A stretch of 64,000 nt of DNA, from contig NZ_CP046230.1 of assembly GCF_012563145.1 (NCBI RefSeq), positions 389,582-453,581 on the forward strand, given 5' to 3'. This document shows, piece after piece, positions 42,174 through 61,301 of the stretch. The notes beneath the pieces were generated by a model that had not been told where the DNA came from, made no database searches, and worked only from the letters and a program-made list of their open reading frames with translations. Each line of letters starts with the position of its first letter. The first letter of the stretch is position 1. The DNA is from Enterobacteriaceae endosymbiont of Plateumaris consimilis. Its GTDB lineage: Bacteria > Pseudomonadota > Gammaproteobacteria > Enterobacterales > Enterobacteriaceae. The translations under genes and the position numbers were made by a program.

Positions 42174-43129
42174 ATGAATACAATAAAATTAAGTAAAACT
42201 GTTTATAAATCTGATAATAGAATGAGATTAGATATATTTCTTACTAAAAAACTCTTTCAATTTTCAAGATCTCAAATAAAAAATTGGATTATTAATAATA
42301 ATATAAAGATTAATGATATTATTATAAATCAACCTAAAAAAAAATTCTTACAGGAGATAAAATACAAGTCGATATTAAAATATCACAAGAACGAATTCTG
42401 TGGAAAGCACAAAATATTCCATTAAATATCATCTATAATGATAATTATTTATTAATAATAAATAAATCTTCAAATTTAGTAGTACATCCAGGAAATGGTA
42501 ATTTAGATAAAACATTATTTAATGCTTTATTATATTATTATCCTTTTCTTAGAGATTTACCAAGAGCTGGTATTATTCATAGACTAGATAAAAATACAAC
42601 CGGATTAATAATTATAGCAAAAACAATGTTGTCATATATGAATTTAAAAATAGCTTTAAAACAACATAAAATTATAAGAGAATATGAAGCTATAGTAAAT
42701 GGTATTATTCAATACAATGATATTATTAACCATCCAATAAAAAAATTTTATAAAAAAAAAAATATACGTATGAATGTAACTGATAAAGGTAAAAAAGCAA
42801 TAACACAATATTTTTTAAAACATGTATTTAAAATGCATAGTCACCTAAGAATTAGATTACATACTGGACGTACACATCAAATTAGAGTACATTTAGAATA
42901 TATTAATCATAGTATTGTAGGTGATCCTATATATAATAATAAATCTCAAATGAATATTATAACAATTAATAATAAAAAATATTTAATTAATAAAATATTA
43001 AAAAGACAAGCATTACATGCGTGTTATTTAGAATTTATGCATCCTATAAATAATTATTTATTAAAGTTTAATTCATCTTTACCTAAAGATATAAAACATT
43101 TAATTTCTATTTTAAAAAAATTCAAATAA
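42174..43129 (+). CDS. rluD: 23S rRNA pseudouridine synthase RluD, frame broken in a poly(A) tract
   Basis: RluD makes pseudouridines 1911/1915/1917 in helix 69 of 23S rRNA. An S4-like RNA-binding domain opens the gene (RMRLDIFLTKKLFQFSRSQI). The reading frame breaks in a run of nine A's (42336-42344): with ten A's it would continue KKKILTGDKIQVDI into the rest of the protein. After that point the protein is intact, with catalytic GIIHRLDKNTTGL (catalytic Asp), RTHQIRVH and KRQALHACYLEF. Total length is then 318 residues (326 in E. coli). One missing A is the only lesion seen. Either the genome truly carries a frameshift rescued by transcriptional slippage, or the base was missed in sequencing. 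Divergent from bamD as in E. coli. Confidence 0.85.
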
Positions 43130-43990: not shown

Positions 43991-44881
43991 ATGAAAAAAA
44001 AACTAATATTAATAGACGGATCGTTTTATTTATATAGAGCTTATTATGCTTTACCTAATTTAATGAATAGTGGAGGCTTTCCTACAGGAGCAATATATGG
44101 TTTTCTAAATATGTTTAATAAAATTATTAATAATAATTTACATAATTATATTATTATTATTTTTGATTCTGTTGGTAAATCATTTAGAAAAAAAATATTT
44201 AATAATTATAAATTAAAACGTATTAGAATGCCAAAAAATTTAATTGTTCAAATAAAACCTTTATATAATATTATAAAATCTATGGGATATCATATAATAT
44301 CTATGAAAAATATTGAAGCAGATGATATCATTGGTACTGTTGCTATAAAAGCAGTTCAAAATAATTATTTTGTTTCTATTTTTAGTATAGATAAAGATAT
44401 GGCTCAATTAGTATCTAATGATATTAATTTAATTAATCCTGTTAATAATTTTATTTCAGGTCCTAATGAAATATATAATAAATATGGTGTAATGCCAAAT
44501 ATGATAAGTGATTTATTGGCATTACAAGGAGATCCTATAGACAATATACCTGGTGTAAAAGGTATTGGAAAAAAAATAAGTGCTTATCTTATAAATAATA
44601 TAGGAAATTTAAAATGTATTTATAAAAATATAAATTTTATAAATAATTTAAATATTAAAAAAGTACAATATATAAAAAAATGTTTATTAAATAATAAAAA
44701 ATTAGCTTTTCTTTCACATAAATTAACAAAAATTAAAACAAATATTAATATTAATATAGACTTAAATAATTTATATATATATTATAAACCAAATGAAAAA
44801 CATTTATTACATTTATATAAAAAATATGAATTTCAAAAATTAATTAATAATATTAAAAATAAAAATATTAATTTTATTTAA
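43991..44881 (+). CDS. polA: 5'-3' exonuclease domain of DNA polymerase I (reduced PolA)
   Basis: Contains only the N-terminal flap/5'-3' exonuclease domain: 296 residues against 928 in E. coli PolA. The metal-binding acids are kept, in LILIDGSFYLYRAYYALP, IIFDSVGK, IEADDIIGT and SIDKDMAQLV, and the helix-hairpin-helix region reads GDPIDNIPGVKGIGKK. The gene stops cleanly and engB follows convergently 13 bases later, so polymerase and proofreading domains are absent here, not frameshifted. Reduction to this domain is known in Buchnera. It should still remove RNA primers; gap filling must come from another polymerase. Confidence 0.94.
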   Translation: MKKKLILIDGSFYLYRAYYALPNLMNSGGFPTGAIYGFLNMFNKIINNNLHNYIIIIFDSVGKSFRKKIFNNYKLKRIRMPKNLIVQIKPLYNIIKSMGYHIISMKNIEADDIIGTVAIKAVQNNYFVSIFSIDKDMAQLVSNDINLINPVNNFISGPNEIYNKYGVMPNMISDLLALQGDPIDNIPGVKGIGKKISAYLINNIGNLKCIYKNINFINNLNIKKVQYIKKCLLNNKKLAFLSHKLTKIKTNININIDLNNLYIYYKPNEKHLLHLYKKYEFQKLINNIKNKNINFI

Positions 44882-50159: not shown

Positions 50160-50381
50160 TTAACCTAATATTTTAGAATGTTTAAATTTTTTCTTGAATT
50201 TTTCTACTCTTCCTTTAGTGTCTATTATTCTTTGTTTACCAGTATAAAAAGGATGACATTTATTACATACATCCAAATTTATTTTTTTTTTGTTTATTAA
50301 TGTTGATTTAGTGTGTATTATATTACCACAAGAACATTTTGCTGTAATATTATTATATTCTGGATGAATATTTTTTTTCAT
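50160..50381 (-). CDS. rpmE: 50S ribosomal protein L31
   Basis: Large-subunit ribosomal protein, zinc-binding form. The 73 residues (70 in E. coli) start [20 protein letters not shown] and contain [12 protein letters not shown], giving the four zinc cysteines (CSC and CNKC). Divergent from priA, as in E. coli. Confidence 0.96.
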
Positions 50382-50505: not shown

Positions 50506-52695
50506 ATGAAAATAATTCAAATAGTACTTAATAATGAAGTATTTGATAAAATATTTGATTATTTATTACCAAATTCTATAAATGTGAATGTAGAATTAGG
50601 AAGTAGAGTAATAATTCATATTAAAAATAAAGAATATATTGGTATAGTAATTAATATTAAAAATAATACAAATATACCTAAATGTAAATTAAAATATTTA
50701 AAAGAAATTTTAGATAATCAATCACTTTTTAATCCTGAAATATGGAATTTTGCTAATAAAATAGCTACATATTATCAATATTCTATTGGTGCAATACTTT
50801 TTCAAATACTTCCTATTTATTTAAGAGAAAAAATATATTCTAAATATATTTTTTATAATTTATATTGGGTTTTAAATAAAAAATTATTAAAAACAAATTT
50901 TAAAAAAATAAAATCATTAAAACAAAAAATAGCATTAAATATATTAAAAATAATCAAAATAAATTATGAAAAAATTTCTTTTTATGGTTTAACTAATAGT
51001 ACAATGATATCTTTACAAAAAAAAAATTTATGTTTTATAGAAAAAAAATATAACTCATTATCTTTTTTAACAAAACAAAATTATTTAAATAATTCACCAA
51101 TTTTTATAAAAACTAATAATATTTTAAATAAATTTTTTAACAAAATAAATATTTTTATAACTTGGATCATATCAGGAAGTTTAGTTTTTCTTGAAAATAT
51201 TAATTTATATTTAAATATAATTAATATTATATTATATAAAAAAAAACAAATATTAATTTTAGTACCTAAAATATATTATTCTACATATATTTATAAATTT
51301 TTAACAAAAAATTTAAATGTTTCTATATATTTATTGAATTCTCAAACTTCTAATAAAGAAAATTTCTTTATTTGGAAAAATACTAAAAATGGTGTAATAC
51401 CAATTATTATTGGTACAAATTACTCTATATTAACATCATTTTTAAATTTAGGTTTAATTATTGTAAGTGAAGAACATGACATTACATATAAACAATCAAA
51501 TCAGTGTAGATATAATACAAGAGATATTGCAATATTAAGAGCTAAAATAGAAAATATTCCAATAATATTAGATTCTGCTACTCCAAGTTTAGAAACATTA
51601 AATAATATTAATATTGGAAAATATAGATTTTTGTCTGATAAGTATCTAAATATATTATATAACAAATATTATAATTTTAATTTAGTTAAAATAAATAACA
51701 AAAAGATTACAAATAGTATTTCTGATATATTGTTAAATATTATTAAAAAACATTTAGATAATAAAAATAATATAATATTATGTATTAATAATATAGGACA
51801 CACAAATACTATTTTATGTAATGTATGTTATTACACTCCTAAATGTTCGATTTGTAATAATAATTATATTTTTTATAAAAAAAAAAAAAGATTATGTTGT
51901 TCTTTTTGTCAAAACATAATTTTAATAATTAAATATTGTTTAAAGTGTAAATCTACAAATATTTCTATTCTAAAAATAGAAATAGCTCAAATAATACAAT
52001 TTTTAAACAAAAAATTTCCTACTATCAGTATAGTATATATTAATGAAAAAAATTTTTTAACAAATAAAAACAAATTAATTGATAAACCAGCTATAATTAT
52101 AAATTCATCTTTTTTTATACAAAAAAGATATAATTTATTAAAAATTACTCTTATAGTATTTATAAATGTAGATTATATTTTTTTTACAAATAATTTTCGT
52201 TATACAGAATATTTTTCTCAATATTTTTTTAGAATATTAAAAAATAATTTAGAAATACAAAAAAAAAAAGAAATAATAATAGAAACAAATTTTACTCAAC
52301 ATAATTTTTTTGATAAATTAATTAATTATGCAAAATATTATTATTTAGCAAACTTTCTTTTGAAAGAAAGAAAATTAATGTTATTACCTCCTTTTAGTAA
52401 TCATGTAATATTAATAGCTGAAGCATATAATATTAATAATATTTTAACATTTCTTAATAGAATAAAAGAGATATTTATACAAAATCATATTAATGATAAA
52501 GATTTTTTTATTATAGGACCTACTGATTTATTAGAAAATAAACCAACAATATTTTTTCGTAAACAAATAATTTTACAGCATCTATCAAGAAGTAAATTAC
52601 ATTCTATTATAAAAAATATGACTCACATAGCAAAAAAAGTTATTTATTTTAATAAAATTAAATTTATAATTGATATTGATCCTATCAGATATTAA
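50506..52695 (+). CDS. priA: primosomal protein PriA with erased helicase motifs
   Basis: PriA recognises stalled forks and loads the replication restart primosome. The 729 residues match E. coli length (732) and align end to end: TWIISGS, SEEHD, RYNTRDIAILRA, DSATPSLETL, four CxxC zinc pairs (about 440-490; CNVC, CSIC, CSFC, CLKC) and the C-terminal LMLLPPFSNHVILIAEA and ILQHLSRSKLHSIIKN blocks. However, the Walker A lysine motif near residue 225 is replaced by SGSLVFLEN, the DEEH box reads SEEH (about 321), and the C-terminal GTQM and QVAGRAGR motifs have no counterpart. ATPase and helicase activity should be lost while DNA-binding and zinc-binding parts remain. A tract of 13 A's (51877-51889) lies inside the zinc region but keeps the frame. 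Confidence 0.9.
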   Translation: MKIIQIVLNNEVFDKIFDYLLPNSINVNVELGSRVIIHIKNKEYIGIVINIKNNTNIPKCKLKYLKEILDNQSLFNPEIWNFANKIATYYQYSIGAILFQILPIYLREKIYSKYIFYNLYWVLNKKLLKTNFKKIKSLKQKIALNILKIIKINYEKISFYGLTNSTMISLQKKNLCFIEKKYNSLSFLTKQNYLNNSPIFIKTNNILNKFFNKINIFITWIISGSLVFLENINLYLNIINIILYKKKQILILVPKIYYSTYIYKFLTKNLNVSIYLLNSQTSNKENFFIWKNTKNGVIPIIIGTNYSILTSFLNLGLIIVSEEHDITYKQSNQCRYNTRDIAILRAKIENIPIILDSATPSLETLNNINIGKYRFLSDKYLNILYNKYYNFNLVKINNKKITNSISDILLNIIKKHLDNKNNIILCINNIGHTNTILCNVCYYTPKCSICNNNYIFYKKKKRLCCSFCQNIILIIKYCLKCKSTNISILKIEIAQIIQFLNKKFPTISIVYINEKNFLTNKNKLIDKPAIIINSSFFIQKRYNLLKITLIVFINVDYIFFTNNFRYTEYFSQYFFRILKNNLEIQKKKEIIIETNFTQHNFFDKLINYAKYYYLANFLLKERKLMLLPPFSNHVILIAEAYNINNILTFLNRIKEIFIQNHINDKDFFIIGPTDLLENKPTIFFRKQIILQHLSRSKLHSIIKNMTHIAKKVIYFNKIKFIIDIDPIRY

Positions 52696-54792: not shown

Positions 54793-55916
<1,124 letters not shown>

Positions 55917-55949
55917 AATTTTACTAAAATAAATTATATAAATAAAATT

Positions 55950-56426
55950 ATGAATATAAATGCAACTATTATCGGTCAAACTATTACTTTTATTTTGATT
56001 ATTATGTTTTGTATGTATTATATCTGGCCTCCAATTATTTTATCTATTGAAAATAGAAAAAAAATAATTCAAGATCAATTATTATTTATAAATAAAAAAA
56101 AAAAAGATATAATTATAGCTGAAAATAAAATTTATTTAAAAATTAAAAAAGCACATAAAGAATATCAAATTATTATTAAACAAGCACAAAAATTAAGTGA
56201 TCATATTATTAATGAAGCACAAGTAGAAAGTAAAAAAATATATAAAGAAACAATTAACAAAGCTCAAAAAAAAATAGAATATGAATATATAATAGCTAAT
56301 GAATCTTTAAAAAAAGAAACTGTAAAAATAGCAATGTCTATTGCAGAAAAAATAATTAAAGATTCTTTTAAAAAAAATAAAAATTATGAAGATGATTTAT
56401 TAAATAATTTTATTAATAAATTATAA
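55950..56426 (+). CDS. atpF: ATP synthase subunit b
   Basis: Peripheral stalk subunit: one N-terminal membrane helix (about 8-28, ending YYIWPPIILSIENRKK) and a long charged coiled coil. The 158 residues match E. coli (156). Much of the coil is Lys-rich, and a tract of 12 A's (56094-56105) remains in frame. It sits between atpE and atpH. Confidence 0.95.
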   Translation: MNINATIIGQTITFILIIMFCMYYIWPPIILSIENRKKIIQDQLLFINKKKKDIIIAENKIYLKIKKAHKEYQIIIKQAQKLSDHIINEAQVESKKIYKETINKAQKKIEYEYIIANESLKKETVKIAMSIAEKIIKDSFKKNKNYEDDLLNNFINKL

Positions 56427-56438
56427 TATAGGTATATT

Positions 56439-56975
56439 ATGTGTTATATAAAAAATTATATTGCATTACAATACGCTAAAGCAGCATTTTTTTTTGCTTT
56501 AAAAAATAATAATATAAAATATTGGAAAAAAATGTTCATATTTTATTGCAATGTAATAAATAATCATTATATAAAAAAGTTTTTATTTTTTAATAATCAT
56601 AAATATATATCTGATGTTCTTATTAAATTATCTAATAATAAATTGAATTTTCATTTTATGAATATGATTAAAATCATGTCAGCAAATAAACGTTTATTTA
56701 TTTTAGATAAAGTTTTAATAGAATTTAATAACTTAAATAATATTTATTATAATAAAGTAAATGTAAATTTATTATCTAATAAAAAATTAAATAGTAACCA
56801 ATTATTAAAAATAAAAAATTTAATAAATAAAAAATTATCTAAAAAAATTTCTATTAATTATATTCATAATAAAAAATTATTAATTGGAGGTATTATTATT
56901 TATATAGAAGATCAAATACTAGATAATAGTATAAGAAGTAAAATCGATTTAATGAGTCAAATTTTACAAAAATAA
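56439..56975 (+). CDS. atpH: ATP synthase subunit delta
   Basis: Stator subunit linking the peripheral stalk to F1. The 178 residues (177 in E. coli) begin with YAKAAFFFALKNNN, matching the conserved PYAKAAFDFA start, followed by MIKIMSANKRLFIL and a C-terminal segment GGIIIYIEDQILDNSIRSK. The middle is poorly conserved, as usual for this subunit. Confidence 0.92.
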   Translation: MCYIKNYIALQYAKAAFFFALKNNNIKYWKKMFIFYCNVINNHYIKKFLFFNNHKYISDVLIKLSNNKLNFHFMNMIKIMSANKRLFILDKVLIEFNNLNNIYYNKVNVNLLSNKKLNSNQLLKIKNLINKKLSKKISINYIHNKKLLIGGIIIYIEDQILDNSIRSKIDLMSQILQK

Positions 56976-56990
56976 GGTATAAATAATATA

Positions 56991-58529
56991 ATGAAATTAA
57001 AAGCAACGGAAATTAGTGAATTAATAAAAAAGAAAATTAATGATTATAATGTATTAAATCAATACTATAATGAAGGAATTATTATTTCTATTGCTGATGG
57101 TATCATAAAAATATATGGACTTTCAAATATTAAAGAAGGAGAAATTATTTCTCTTCCTGAGAATACTTATGCTATAGCTTTAAATTTGGAAATAGATTTT
57201 GTTAGTGCTGTTGTATTAGGTTCTTATATACATTTAATAGAAGGAATGAAAGTTAAAAATACTGGTAATCAACTCAATATTCCAGTAGGAAGAAAATTAA
57301 TGGGAAGAATTATAGATACATTAGGGAATCCTATTGATGGTAAAGGTAATATTGATTATGAATATTTATCTCCTATTGAAGTATCTGCACCTACTGTAAT
57401 TGATCGTTGTCCAGTAAATCAACCATTACAAACAGGATATAAATTTATTGATGCTATAATACCTATTGGTAAAGGTCAAAGACAATTAATTATTGGAGAT
57501 AGACAAACAGGAAAAACTACATTAGCTATTGATACCATAATAAACCAAAAAAATACTAATGTAAAATGTATATATGTAGGTATTGGACAAAAACAAACAA
57601 CTATTTCTTATATAAAAAATATATTAGAAAAAAATAATGTATTAAAAAATACAATTATTATTGTTGCATCTGCATCAGATACAGCTATATTACAATATTT
57701 AGTTCCATATGCTGGATGTACTATAGGTGAGTATTTTAGAGATAGAGGAGAAGATGCTTTAATTGTATATGATGATTTATCAAAACAATCTATTGCATAT
57801 AGACAAATATCTTTATTATTAAGACGTCCTCCTGGAAGAGAAGCATTTCCAGGAGATATATTTTATATTCATTCTCGATTGTTAGAAAGATCTGCCAGAG
57901 TCAATAGTTTTTATGTTGAAAAATTTACTAAAAATGATATAAAAGGTAAAACCGGCTCTTTAACAGCTTTCCCTATAGTAGAAACTCAAGCTGGAGATAT
58001 TTCTTCTTTTATTCCAACAAATATAATTTCTATAACTGATGGACAAATTTTTTTAGATAAAAATTTATTTAATAAAGGAATAAGACCAGCTATAGATCCT
58101 GGTATTTCAGTTTCTAGAGTAGGTAGTACAGCTCAAAATAATATTATAAAAAAATTATCTTCTAATATACGTTTAATTTTAGCTCAATATAGGGAATTAG
58201 CTGTATTTTCTCAATTTTCATCAGAATTAGATAAAAAAACTACAGAATATCTATTAAATGGAAAAAAAATAATAGAAATTTTAAAACAAAAACCATATAA
58301 ACCATTATCTGTAATAAATCAAATTCTTATTTTATTTGCAATATATAAAAAATATATAGATTTAATAGATTTGAAAAAAATTCAAAAATTTCAATATAAT
58401 TTAATTAATTATACTAATTTAAATTTTAAAGAAATTTTATATAAAATTAATAAGAATTGTATATATAATAAAGATGTTGAAAATCAACTAAATTTTATTT
58501 TTAACGATTTTTTTTCTCATTTTAAATAA
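56991..58529 (+). CDS. atpA: ATP synthase subunit alpha
   Basis: Non-catalytic nucleotide-binding subunit of F1. The 512 residues (513 in E. coli) include the P-loop GDRQTGKTT, the IGIGQK-type (VGIGQKQTT) block, [11 protein letters not shown], and the signature [14 protein letters not shown] with the arginine finger (SRVGS). All appear intact. The last 100 residues are more divergent. Confidence 0.97.
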
Positions 58530-58554
58530 AATAAATTTTTTCTAGGTAAGATAA

Positions 58555-59433
58555 ATGAATTTTATAAAAGAAATACGAAATAAAATAGAAGGAATAAAAA
58601 ATACAAAGAAAATTACTAAAGCTATGGAAATGGTTACAGTATTTAAAATACGTAAATCACAAAAAAAAATGTTTTCTAGTAAATTATATTTATCTTTATT
58701 AAATAAATTAATAAAAAATATTTATCTATTTCAAAACAATATAAAAAAAAAACATCAATATATATATAATAATAAAATTATAAAAAATATAGGATATATT
58801 CTTATAACAACAGATAAAGGATTATGTGGAAATTTTAACAATAATTTATTTAAATTATTATCCAATGATATAAAAAAATGGAAAGAAAAATCTATTAATA
58901 TTAAATCAGCTGTTATAGGTTGTAAAGGATTATTTTTTTTAAAAAAAAATAATATTCAAATAGTATCACAGATAACAAACATTAAAACTAATGATATTAA
59001 TATATCAAAAATAATTAGCATTATAAAATATATGCTAAATTTATATAAAAAATCTTATATTGATAAATTATTTATAGTTTATAATAAATATGTAAATAAT
59101 GTAATACAAACACCAAAAATATTTCAGATATTACCATTATCTTTAAATGAAATAAATAAAAAAAATATAGAAAAAAATAATTATCTTTATGAACCAAATT
59201 TTTATACAATTACAAATTATATTTTAAATAAATATATTCAATTACAAATATACAATTTTTTTTTAGAAAATTTAGTTGGAGAATATGCATCTAGAATTAT
59301 AACTATGAAAACAGCTACTGATAATGCTGATCATTTTATTAAAGATTTACAATTATTATATAATAAAGTTAGACAATCAAATATCACACAAGAGTTAAAT
59401 GAAATTATTACTGGTGCATCAGCTATGAAATAA
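58555..59433 (+). CDS. atpG: ATP synthase subunit gamma
   Basis: Central rotating shaft of F1. The 292 residues (287 in E. coli) open with EIRNKIEGIKNTKKITKAME and end with the paired helix region MKTATDNADHFI, ITQELNEIITGASA, both highly conserved. The middle is Lys/Asn-rich and divergent. TDKGLCGNFNN marks the conserved Rossmann-like core. Confidence 0.96.
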   Translation: MNFIKEIRNKIEGIKNTKKITKAMEMVTVFKIRKSQKKMFSSKLYLSLLNKLIKNIYLFQNNIKKKHQYIYNNKIIKNIGYILITTDKGLCGNFNNNLFKLLSNDIKKWKEKSINIKSAVIGCKGLFFLKKNNIQIVSQITNIKTNDINISKIISIIKYMLNLYKKSYIDKLFIVYNKYVNNVIQTPKIFQILPLSLNEINKKNIEKNNYLYEPNFYTITNYILNKYIQLQIYNFFLENLVGEYASRIITMKTATDNADHFIKDLQLLYNKVRQSNITQELNEIITGASAMK

Positions 59434-59444
59434 TAATTATTTAA

Positions 59445-60848
<1,404 letters not shown>

Positions 60849-60881
60849 TATATAATATTATATATAATTGGAATAATATTT

Positions 60882-61301
60882 ATGCATAAAGAATATATTT
60901 TAAATATAATTAGTATAGAAAAAAAAATATTTTCTGATTTAGTAAAAAAGGTAAAAATACCAGGCATAGAAGGTTATTTAAGTATATATCCTAATCATAT
61001 ACCTTTATTAACTTTAATAAAACCAGGAGTTATATATATAGCTCAAAAAAAAAATAATAAATATTTTTATATATCTGGAGGAATATTAGAAATTAAAAAA
61101 AAACAAGTTAATGTTTTAGCAGATATAGTTATAAAAGGTACTGATTTAAAAGAAAAAATAATTTTAATAAATAAATCTAAAATAGAAAAAAAAATTAAAA
61201 ATAATGTTTTTAATAAAGATTATTTACTAGCTATAAAAGAATTGTATAAAATTATAGCACAATTAAAAACAGTTCAATTAACAAAAAAAAATAATGAATA
61301 A
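60882..61301 (+). CDS. atpC: ATP synthase subunit epsilon
   Basis: Regulatory subunit on the central stalk. The 139 residues equal the E. coli length. The N-terminal beta-sandwich reads VKIPGIEGYLSIYPNHIPLLT with the conserved GxLG-like region altered, then ISGGILEIKKKQVNVLAD. The C-terminal two-helix part is retained though divergent. Last gene of the atp operon, followed by a 186-base A/T-rich gap before nrdA in which no clear terminator was found. Confidence 0.95.
   Translation: MHKEYILNIISIEKKIFSDLVKKVKIPGIEGYLSIYPNHIPLLTLIKPGVIYIAQKKNNKYFYISGGILEIKKKQVNVLADIVIKGTDLKEKIILINKSKIEKKIKNNVFNKDYLLAIKELYKIIAQLKTVQLTKKNNE

Follow-up and report, generated by a model that had tools for sequence, protein, structure and literature searches.

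A PriA orthologue without canonical ATPase motifs is retained as a putative pseudohelicase in reed-beetle endosymbionts

The window analysed here is a 64,000-nucleotide stretch of the chromosome of the endosymbiont of Plateumaris consimilis (NZ_CP046230.1, positions 389,582 to 453,581). The genome comprises two contigs: the chromosome, 512,724 bp long, and a 5,136-bp plasmid that shares 78% identity with the plasmid of the P. pusilla symbiont. On the forward strand of the window a frame of 729 codons with an ATG start (50506..52695) represents a putative priA-derived pseudohelicase gene, a designation drawn from the open reading frame list, family profiles, a PriA structure in the PDB and the open orthologues in 24/24 genomes of the genus. 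It diverges from rpmE (50160..50381, minus strand, from the open reading frame list), the same priA/rpmE order as in E. coli K-12, and mnmG and the atp operon lie downstream. The latter, an ATP synthase operon, occupies 54805-61301 (+); among reed-beetle symbionts only those of Plateumaris are described as retaining it (PMC7289800).

The 729-residue protein matched NCBIfam NF004065 over residues 1-727 with 468.3 bits, below the equivalog cut-off of 858, TIGR00595 with 278.8 bits (above the cut-off of 230.35) and the PriA chain 8fak_H of the PDB over residues 14-728 (E 1e-99). Pfam returned PF17764 (76.9 bits, E 1e-21) and PF18074 (35.7 bits, cut-off 26.9), and its helicase domains all stayed below cut-off. 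These profiles and 8fak_H agree with an earlier, sequence-only reading of the locus, in which an intact frame of 729 residues aligned with PriA at both ends. Judged by full-length similarity, the rpmE neighbour and eight zinc cysteines, the frame is a PriA orthologue. The genus sample comprised the window genome and 23 relatives (26 species have been published), and the frame is open in all 24, with 675-729 codons and identity down to 42%. Six of the 24 matches span one stop each, and this is the terminal one. In the window copy the open frame contains a tract of 13 A's, already noticed in the earlier reading and located here at 51877..51889 (+).

What is missing from this protein is its motor. 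Motif names and domain boundaries were set by hand, partly following the usual scheme. In the alignment Walker A changes from GVTGSGKTEVY to SLVFLENINLY, and the segment in its place (residues 219-237, 51160..51216, +) reads TWIISGSLVFLENINLYLN. Motif II has become SEEH instead of DEEH (residues 321-324, 51466..51477, +), the motif GTQMLAKGHHFP reads NSSFFIQKRYNLL, and QVAGRAGRA is replaced by RILKNNLEI. The former motifs V and VI together span residues 532-590 (52099..52275, +); within them the motif VI site, RILKNNLE (residues 576-583, 52231..52254, +), has an isoleucine, a leucine and an asparagine (I577, L578, N580) that are invariant in 24/24 genus proteins and differ from the residues of E. 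coli. The replacement of Walker A, the change of DEEH and the disappearance of motifs V and VI had all been proposed from the letters alone, and the alignment bears them out and adds two details: the window copy still has motifs Ib (IGT) and III (SATPSLET), and it has also lost motif IVa (GxGTEQL). The loss of IVa is shared with four other Plateumaris symbionts; the other 19 genus PriAs retain its first glycine (19/19) and mostly its second (18/19), with an exact GTEQL in 6/19.

It might be thought that such a loss is a peculiarity of one genome, and the earlier reading had treated it in a single genome. This part of that reading did not stand, since the loss is genus-wide and recurs in other symbionts. 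Once the related endosymbiont PriAs had been aligned, Walker A, DExH and GRxGR were each found in 0/24 genus orthologues, which rules out a loss peculiar to the window genome, and the agreement of 24 genomes rules out an assembly error as its source. Nor was a substitute P-loop, DExH or GRxGR found anywhere in the window protein or in the 24 genus orthologues, so a P-loop moved to another position is ruled out too. Some residues of the old site persist: the two motif II glutamates are retained in 22/24 and 24/24 genus PriAs and a lysine stands at the Walker position in 13/24, and both motif VI arginines are changed in all 24. With motifs I, II, V and VI replaced, the canonical SF2 ATP site is gone.

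The remainder of the protein has fared differently. dN/dS was estimated with a custom pairwise Goldman-Yang model (not PAML) on 14 of the 24 genus genomes, arranged as seven independent close pairs, and gave an omega of 0.131 for the whole gene; every domain departed from omega = 1 with a 2dlnL of 30 or above. The 3' DNA-binding domain (residues 1-107, 50506..50826, +; PF17764, E 1e-21) has an omega of 0.126 and keeps, in E. coli numbering, D17 in 22/24 and Y18 in 24/24 orthologues. Winged helix and linker follow with 0.224. Helicase lobe 1, for which hand-set boundaries of residues 201-400 were used (51106..51705, +), has the lowest value of all domains, 0.070, and is set apart by LRTs of 21.0 against the remainder of the protein and 12.2 against lobe 2, whose omega is 0.154. 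The cysteine-rich zinc region (residues 434-484, 51805..51957, +; omega 0.106) and the C-terminal domain (residues 630-729, 52393..52692, +; omega 0.158) had been described as surviving, and so they do: all eight cysteines are present in 24/24 orthologues, PF18074 scores 35.7 bits against its cut-off of 26.9, and values of 0.11 and 0.16 are far from the neutrality that would have marked a decaying gene. Among the positions that show a constancy of 95% or more across 42 intact PriAs, those retained in at least 22/24 symbionts number 18/52 in lobe 1, 10/43 in lobe 2, 8/11 in the zinc region, 4/5 in the 3' DNA-binding domain, 2/4 in the C-terminal domain and 0/0 in the winged helix. The zinc cysteines, the 3'-end pocket residues and lobe 1 are under constraint.

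Constraint on priA is nevertheless weaker than on mnmG, with an omega of 0.037 in the same pairs, and the dead PriA of the genus evolves faster than intact PriA in two other small-genome groups (0.071 and 0.090). Dead PriAs gave 0.099 in the Lightella-type genus and 0.097 in one Buchnera pair, and Ka/Ks values of 0.143-0.147 are given for Wolbachia priA (PMC4224334). The two former motor sites behave unlike each other. The segment in the place of Walker A has an omega of 0.006 (2dlnL 51 against omega = 1) in the genus, to be read with the reservation that its 19 codons are few and that genus-wide its mean entropy of 1.17, compared with 1.01 for residues 238-400, shows no greater uniformity than in the adjoining sequence. 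The value is like that of the living motif in the two intact groups, 0.018 and 0.001, and of the dead site in other symbionts, 0.019 in the Lightella-type genus and 0.024 in Buchnera, the last with a 2dlnL of only 5.0. The stretch of motifs V and VI, by contrast, is relaxed: its omega of 0.167 in the genus is 14 to 42 times that of intact PriA (0.012 and 0.004 in the two groups), and the dead PriAs of the Lightella-type genus and of one Buchnera pair have 0.070 and 0.078.

An AlphaFold2 model, which supplies the fold prediction suggested by the earlier reading, was complete and PriA-like, with a mean pLDDT of 84.8 and a pTM of 0.85, values to be seen in the light of the underlying alignment, whose 44 rows (the window protein and 43 relatives, of which 42 are intact PriAs and one is Lightella) bias the prediction in favour of a PriA fold. 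The only stretch of at least three residues under pLDDT 50 was the old motif V loop (538-541). Model and sequence together suggest that the protein probably has a fold similar to that of PriA.

Two contact surfaces are altered. W83, part of the SSB-tail pocket in the K. pneumoniae structure, is K, Q or T in 24/24 genus PriAs, and part of this putative pocket is therefore changed. The residues of PriA on which PriB docks are given as D438, S481, T482 and H483 (PMC10175261), and in the genus PriAs these are mostly replaced, D438, T482 and H483 standing out. The likely partners themselves were sought with E. coli proteins as queries. DnaB, RecA, SSB and a Rep/UvrD-type helicase were found in genus genomes, the SSB of the window genome with its acidic tail (DFEDDIPF) retained. 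DnaT, DnaC, PriB, PriC and DnaA had no match at E<=1 in 5/5 genus genomes (the window genome and those taken as the symbionts of P. braccata, D. tomentosa, Neohaemonia and M. mutica), and the same queries recovered all partner proteins from a 5-Mb control genome (G032). Over all 24 genus genomes neither DnaA nor DnaC was among the matches listed (down to about E 5e-61), and nothing scored above the cut-off of PF00308, the DnaA family, in any of them. Weak Bac_DnaA-like matches (E 6e-5 to 0.02) occur in seven or eight of the 24 genomes, including L239 (G021) and L240 (G005), in frames of 573-590 aa that share a single chromosomal location (about 427-432 kb), and none in the window genome.

In place of DnaC there is a candidate of another kind. 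Upstream of secA, and in divergent orientation to it, the window genome encodes a DciA-like protein of 159 aa, for which PF05258 (DciA) gave 24.2 bits when it was scored genome-wide together with its neighbours and 23.1 alone, on either side of the cut-off of 24. PF05258 matched at E<=1 in 21/24 genus genomes, above cut-off only in that of the window, and HHalign against clear DciAs gave a probability of 99.7% over 155 columns. A DciA-like gene without DnaC fits the mutual exclusion described for the two loaders, according to which 0 of 1,426 genomes retained both dciA and dna[CI] (PMC5109545), and authors working on Caulobacter have proposed that DciA and PriA work together at forks (PMC9825169). 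DciA-like matches were found in reed-beetle and Lightella-type symbionts, those tested yielding no DnaC match, whereas a Buchnera (G120) and Ishikawaella combine a dead PriA motor with DnaA, DnaC and DnaT and yielded no DciA match. This difference is a hint of separate losses. The absence of partners is by itself not tied to a dead motor, because the same partners had no match in genome G218, whose PriA is intact; nor had they in G110.

How widely the motor has been lost was examined in 392 genomes of the family, of which 361 had some match, possibly to another helicase, and 31 had none. Sixty small-genome relatives (up to about 1.2 Mb, with a clear priA match) were chosen by eye, with at least one such genome of weaker match (G141) left out, and scored for GK[ST] at motif I, DExH and GRxGR. 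All three motifs are intact in 21, and 25 full frames, Buchnera and Lightella among them, have lost motifs I and VI (19 all three; six keep DExH). Two are mixed, eight are broken frames, one of them with its motifs whole, and four are Stammera-type frames that are open under table 4 (TGA=Trp) and contain none of the three motifs. Names were assigned from plasmid matches for four Buchnera groups and Ishikawaella, from likeness to a named record (L065) for the Lightella-type genus, and from a 100% plasmid match of G148 for Stammera, the other three sharing its genus code. Under the standard code, 27/27 non-intact full frames have the eight cysteines aligned; the four Stammera-type frames each contain four CxxC pairs. 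Among 588 named PriA loci, 79 of the best 80 by the pattern around motif II have all three motifs, in three cases within a frame that was not the longest at its locus, and the exception is Lightella.

The Stammera-type loci (L265-L268 in G148, G257, G389 and G329) lie on chromosomes of 258-305 kb and encode dead PriAs some 600 aa long whose frames contain TGA codons. When inspected by eye, two or more of these codons fall on tryptophan positions of PriA, consistent with TGA=Trp, a code published for Stammera (PMC8629427). In L130 (G113) and L133 (G062) the GKT of Walker A is present and motifs II and VI are already lost; these may be intermediates. Small genome size alone does not cost PriA its motor, because a genus with genomes of 0.3-0.4 Mb (L120 and L121, in G080 and G218) has the full intact motif set. 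Dead PriA, in turn, is dispensable in some lineages, given the broken frames among their kin, for example L168 in the Buchnera-type group g98 and L175 in g116.

In an rpoB phylogeny built from 30 selected genomes, rows with intact and lost motifs are intermixed. Parsimony requires four changes, or six if partly broken motifs are scored as lost; g40 (G062) was scored as lost although mixed by rule, and omitting it or scoring it as intact still gives four. Uniting the Buchnera, reed-beetle, Lightella and g88 rows in one clade gave p 0.44 in the AU test, and uniting all lost rows except g72 gave p 0.07; neither grouping is rejected. Group g72 falls in a separate supported clade (100/98) and contains both an intact (L150) and a lost (L132) PriA. 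Read as four changes by parsimony, and bearing in mind the p of 0.44 for a single loss behind most lost rows, the motor appears to have been lost while the frame was retained in at least two separate small-genome groups.

What, then, could a PriA without a motor do? We favour the interpretation, with a probability of roughly 0.7, that the change of the orthologue to a pseudohelicase dates from the common ancestor of the reed-beetle symbionts or earlier, and that purifying selection has since held it as an ATP-free mark on forks for the loading of DnaB. It would bind branched DNA such as stalled forks and D-loops without ATP and keep the lagging strand single-stranded, thereby marking the place of DnaB's return. 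As no PriB, PriC, DnaT or DnaC was found, delivery of DnaB would fall to the DciA-like protein, or DnaB would bind PriA directly, as is reported for Deinococcus. The structure of E. coli PriA has the leading duplex gripped by the 3' DNA-binding and C-terminal domains, the parental duplex by the winged helix and helicase lobe 1, and the lagging strand by the 3' DNA-binding domain, both lobes, the cysteine-rich region and the C-terminal domain (PMC10175261). The constraint on lobe 1 could accordingly come from gripping parental duplex and lagging strand in the same way, not from ATP, and the motor motifs of lobe 2 would be freer in a static fork clamp. A scaffold for fork recognition and loading had been suggested in the sequence-only reading; motif loss, open frames and low dN/dS support it, while fork binding and DnaB loading would be its inferred part. 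The analogy with E. coli on which that suggestion leaned holds in so far as ATPase-dead PriA loads DnaB there, and the ATPase is described as dispensable for PriA-PriB restart in vivo (PMC10175261). It is not directly transferable, however, because PriB, DnaT and DnaC, the partners of ATPase-dead PriA, were not found here.

A bolder version makes the ATP-free PriA, beyond its part in restart, the main structural initiator of a chromosome in which DnaA, DnaC, DnaT, PriB and PriC went undetected. PriA would recognise D-loops made by RecA or other branched DNA and DciA would load DnaB, so that the whole chromosome is copied without DnaA or a PriA motor; the new sequences at motifs I and VI would serve the static role, and the dead-motor route would have been taken several times. 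We regard this as speculative and rather doubtful.

Selection on a fork-bound protein could also have another object. The pseudohelicase might occupy the nascent 3' end and forks coated with SSB, keeping polymerases or nucleases out, without loading DnaB. The retained 3'-end pocket residues and zinc domain would suit such a protector, as would the lost PriB dock and the failure to find an E. coli-type loading chain, and PriA reportedly blocks access of the replicase, as the title of a 2013 paper by Manhart has it. We consider fork protection unlikely, since a simple loading chain is at hand: the symbiont retains DnaB, the tail of its SSB is intact, and it has a DciA-like loader. Far less probable is slow decay, in which the motifs of a functionless gene went first and the rest is following. 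Broken frames in 8/60 small-genome relatives, one with its motifs whole, the 31/392 family genomes without any match and the 14- to 42-fold relaxation of motifs V and VI are what decay would leave behind. But omega is far under 1 in every domain, 24/24 frames are open, and the eight cysteines persist in the genus and in 27/27 other non-intact full frames. Moreover, in neutral simulations with the third-position composition (5% GC) as target, a distance of 0.3 changes per site produced a mean of 46 in-frame stops, and 0/500 runs were free of stops at each of four distances, much as the earlier reading had expected of a long unselected frame. Decay is ruled out by dN/dS and simulation together; the priA of this genus has the signature of a selected pseudohelicase, not of a decaying gene. 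That an ATPase persists through a non-canonical nucleotide site, for which the largely retained motif II glutamates (22/24 and 24/24), the Walker-position lysine in 13/24 and the strongly constrained P-loop-site segment (omega 0.006) might speak, is highly improbable with the P-loop in 0/24, both motif VI arginines changed in 24/24 and motif V gone, and with Deinococcus PriA, which has K changed to R and a poor motif II, described as lacking ATPase (PMC4504706).

The ATP-free fork mark has its closest known counterpart in Deinococcus-Thermus, where Lopper et al. (2015) described a PriA pseudohelicase defective in Walker A and B. The D. radiodurans protein is reported there to have no ATPase or helicase activity and still to bind forks, DNA and DnaB, in an organism for which the same account gives no clear priB or dnaT (PMC4504706). 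Symbiont PriA resembles it in its defective ATP-site motifs and in the lack of matches for priB and dnaT at E<=1 in 5/5 genus genomes (the control G032 yields both), and the Deinobacterium and Thermus control genomes carry DciA just as the reed-beetle symbiont has a DciA-like gene. It differs in that Deinococcus has exchanged the P-loop lysine for arginine in a motif that is described as recognisable (PMC4504706), whereas the symbiont protein has other sequence at each of motifs I, II, V and VI, its genome is reduced, with no dnaA detected, and its lobe 1 has the lowest omega of the domains. With E. coli PriA it shares an orthologous gene adjoining rpmE. The ATPase-dead E. coli variants K230R and K230A (priA300) are described as still supporting DnaB loading in vitro with PriB, DnaT and DnaC (PMC10175261), whereas in the symbiont these three were not found and D438, T482 and H483 of the PriB dock are mostly replaced. 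PriA of Buchnera, Lightella, Ishikawaella and Stammera likewise lacks motifs I and VI in a full frame that preserves the zinc cysteines, but carries other residues at the dead motifs; in addition Buchnera G120 and Ishikawaella possess DnaA, DnaC and DnaT without a DciA match, and the Stammera frame needs TGA=Trp.

Among the titles and opening lines of abstracts listed by a literature search, with most subscription journals outside its range, there was no report of motif loss in a symbiont PriA, and by word search priA is absent from the main text of PMC7289800 and PMC12508126. PriA pseudohelicases were already known from Deinococcus-Thermus. As far as these searches go, three things are new: a much fuller loss of motifs, the repeated appearance of this state in insect symbionts, Buchnera among them, and the pattern of selection over the domains. 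The symbionts offer a natural, replicated experiment on the purpose of the PriA motor in replication restart, with the motor removed and the scaffold retained. The case with DciA instead of DnaC points to a minimal and testable restart system of PriA, DciA, DnaB and SSB, and bears on the start of replication in symbionts without dnaA.

Two further frames in the window appear shortened when inspected by eye. One of 296 aa (43991-44881, +) resembles the 5' nuclease portion of DNA polymerase I by itself, the polymerase domain being absent downstream, and one of 167 aa (42626-43129, +) resembles an RluD-type pseudouridine synthase that lacks its N-terminal portion and retains the C-terminal one.
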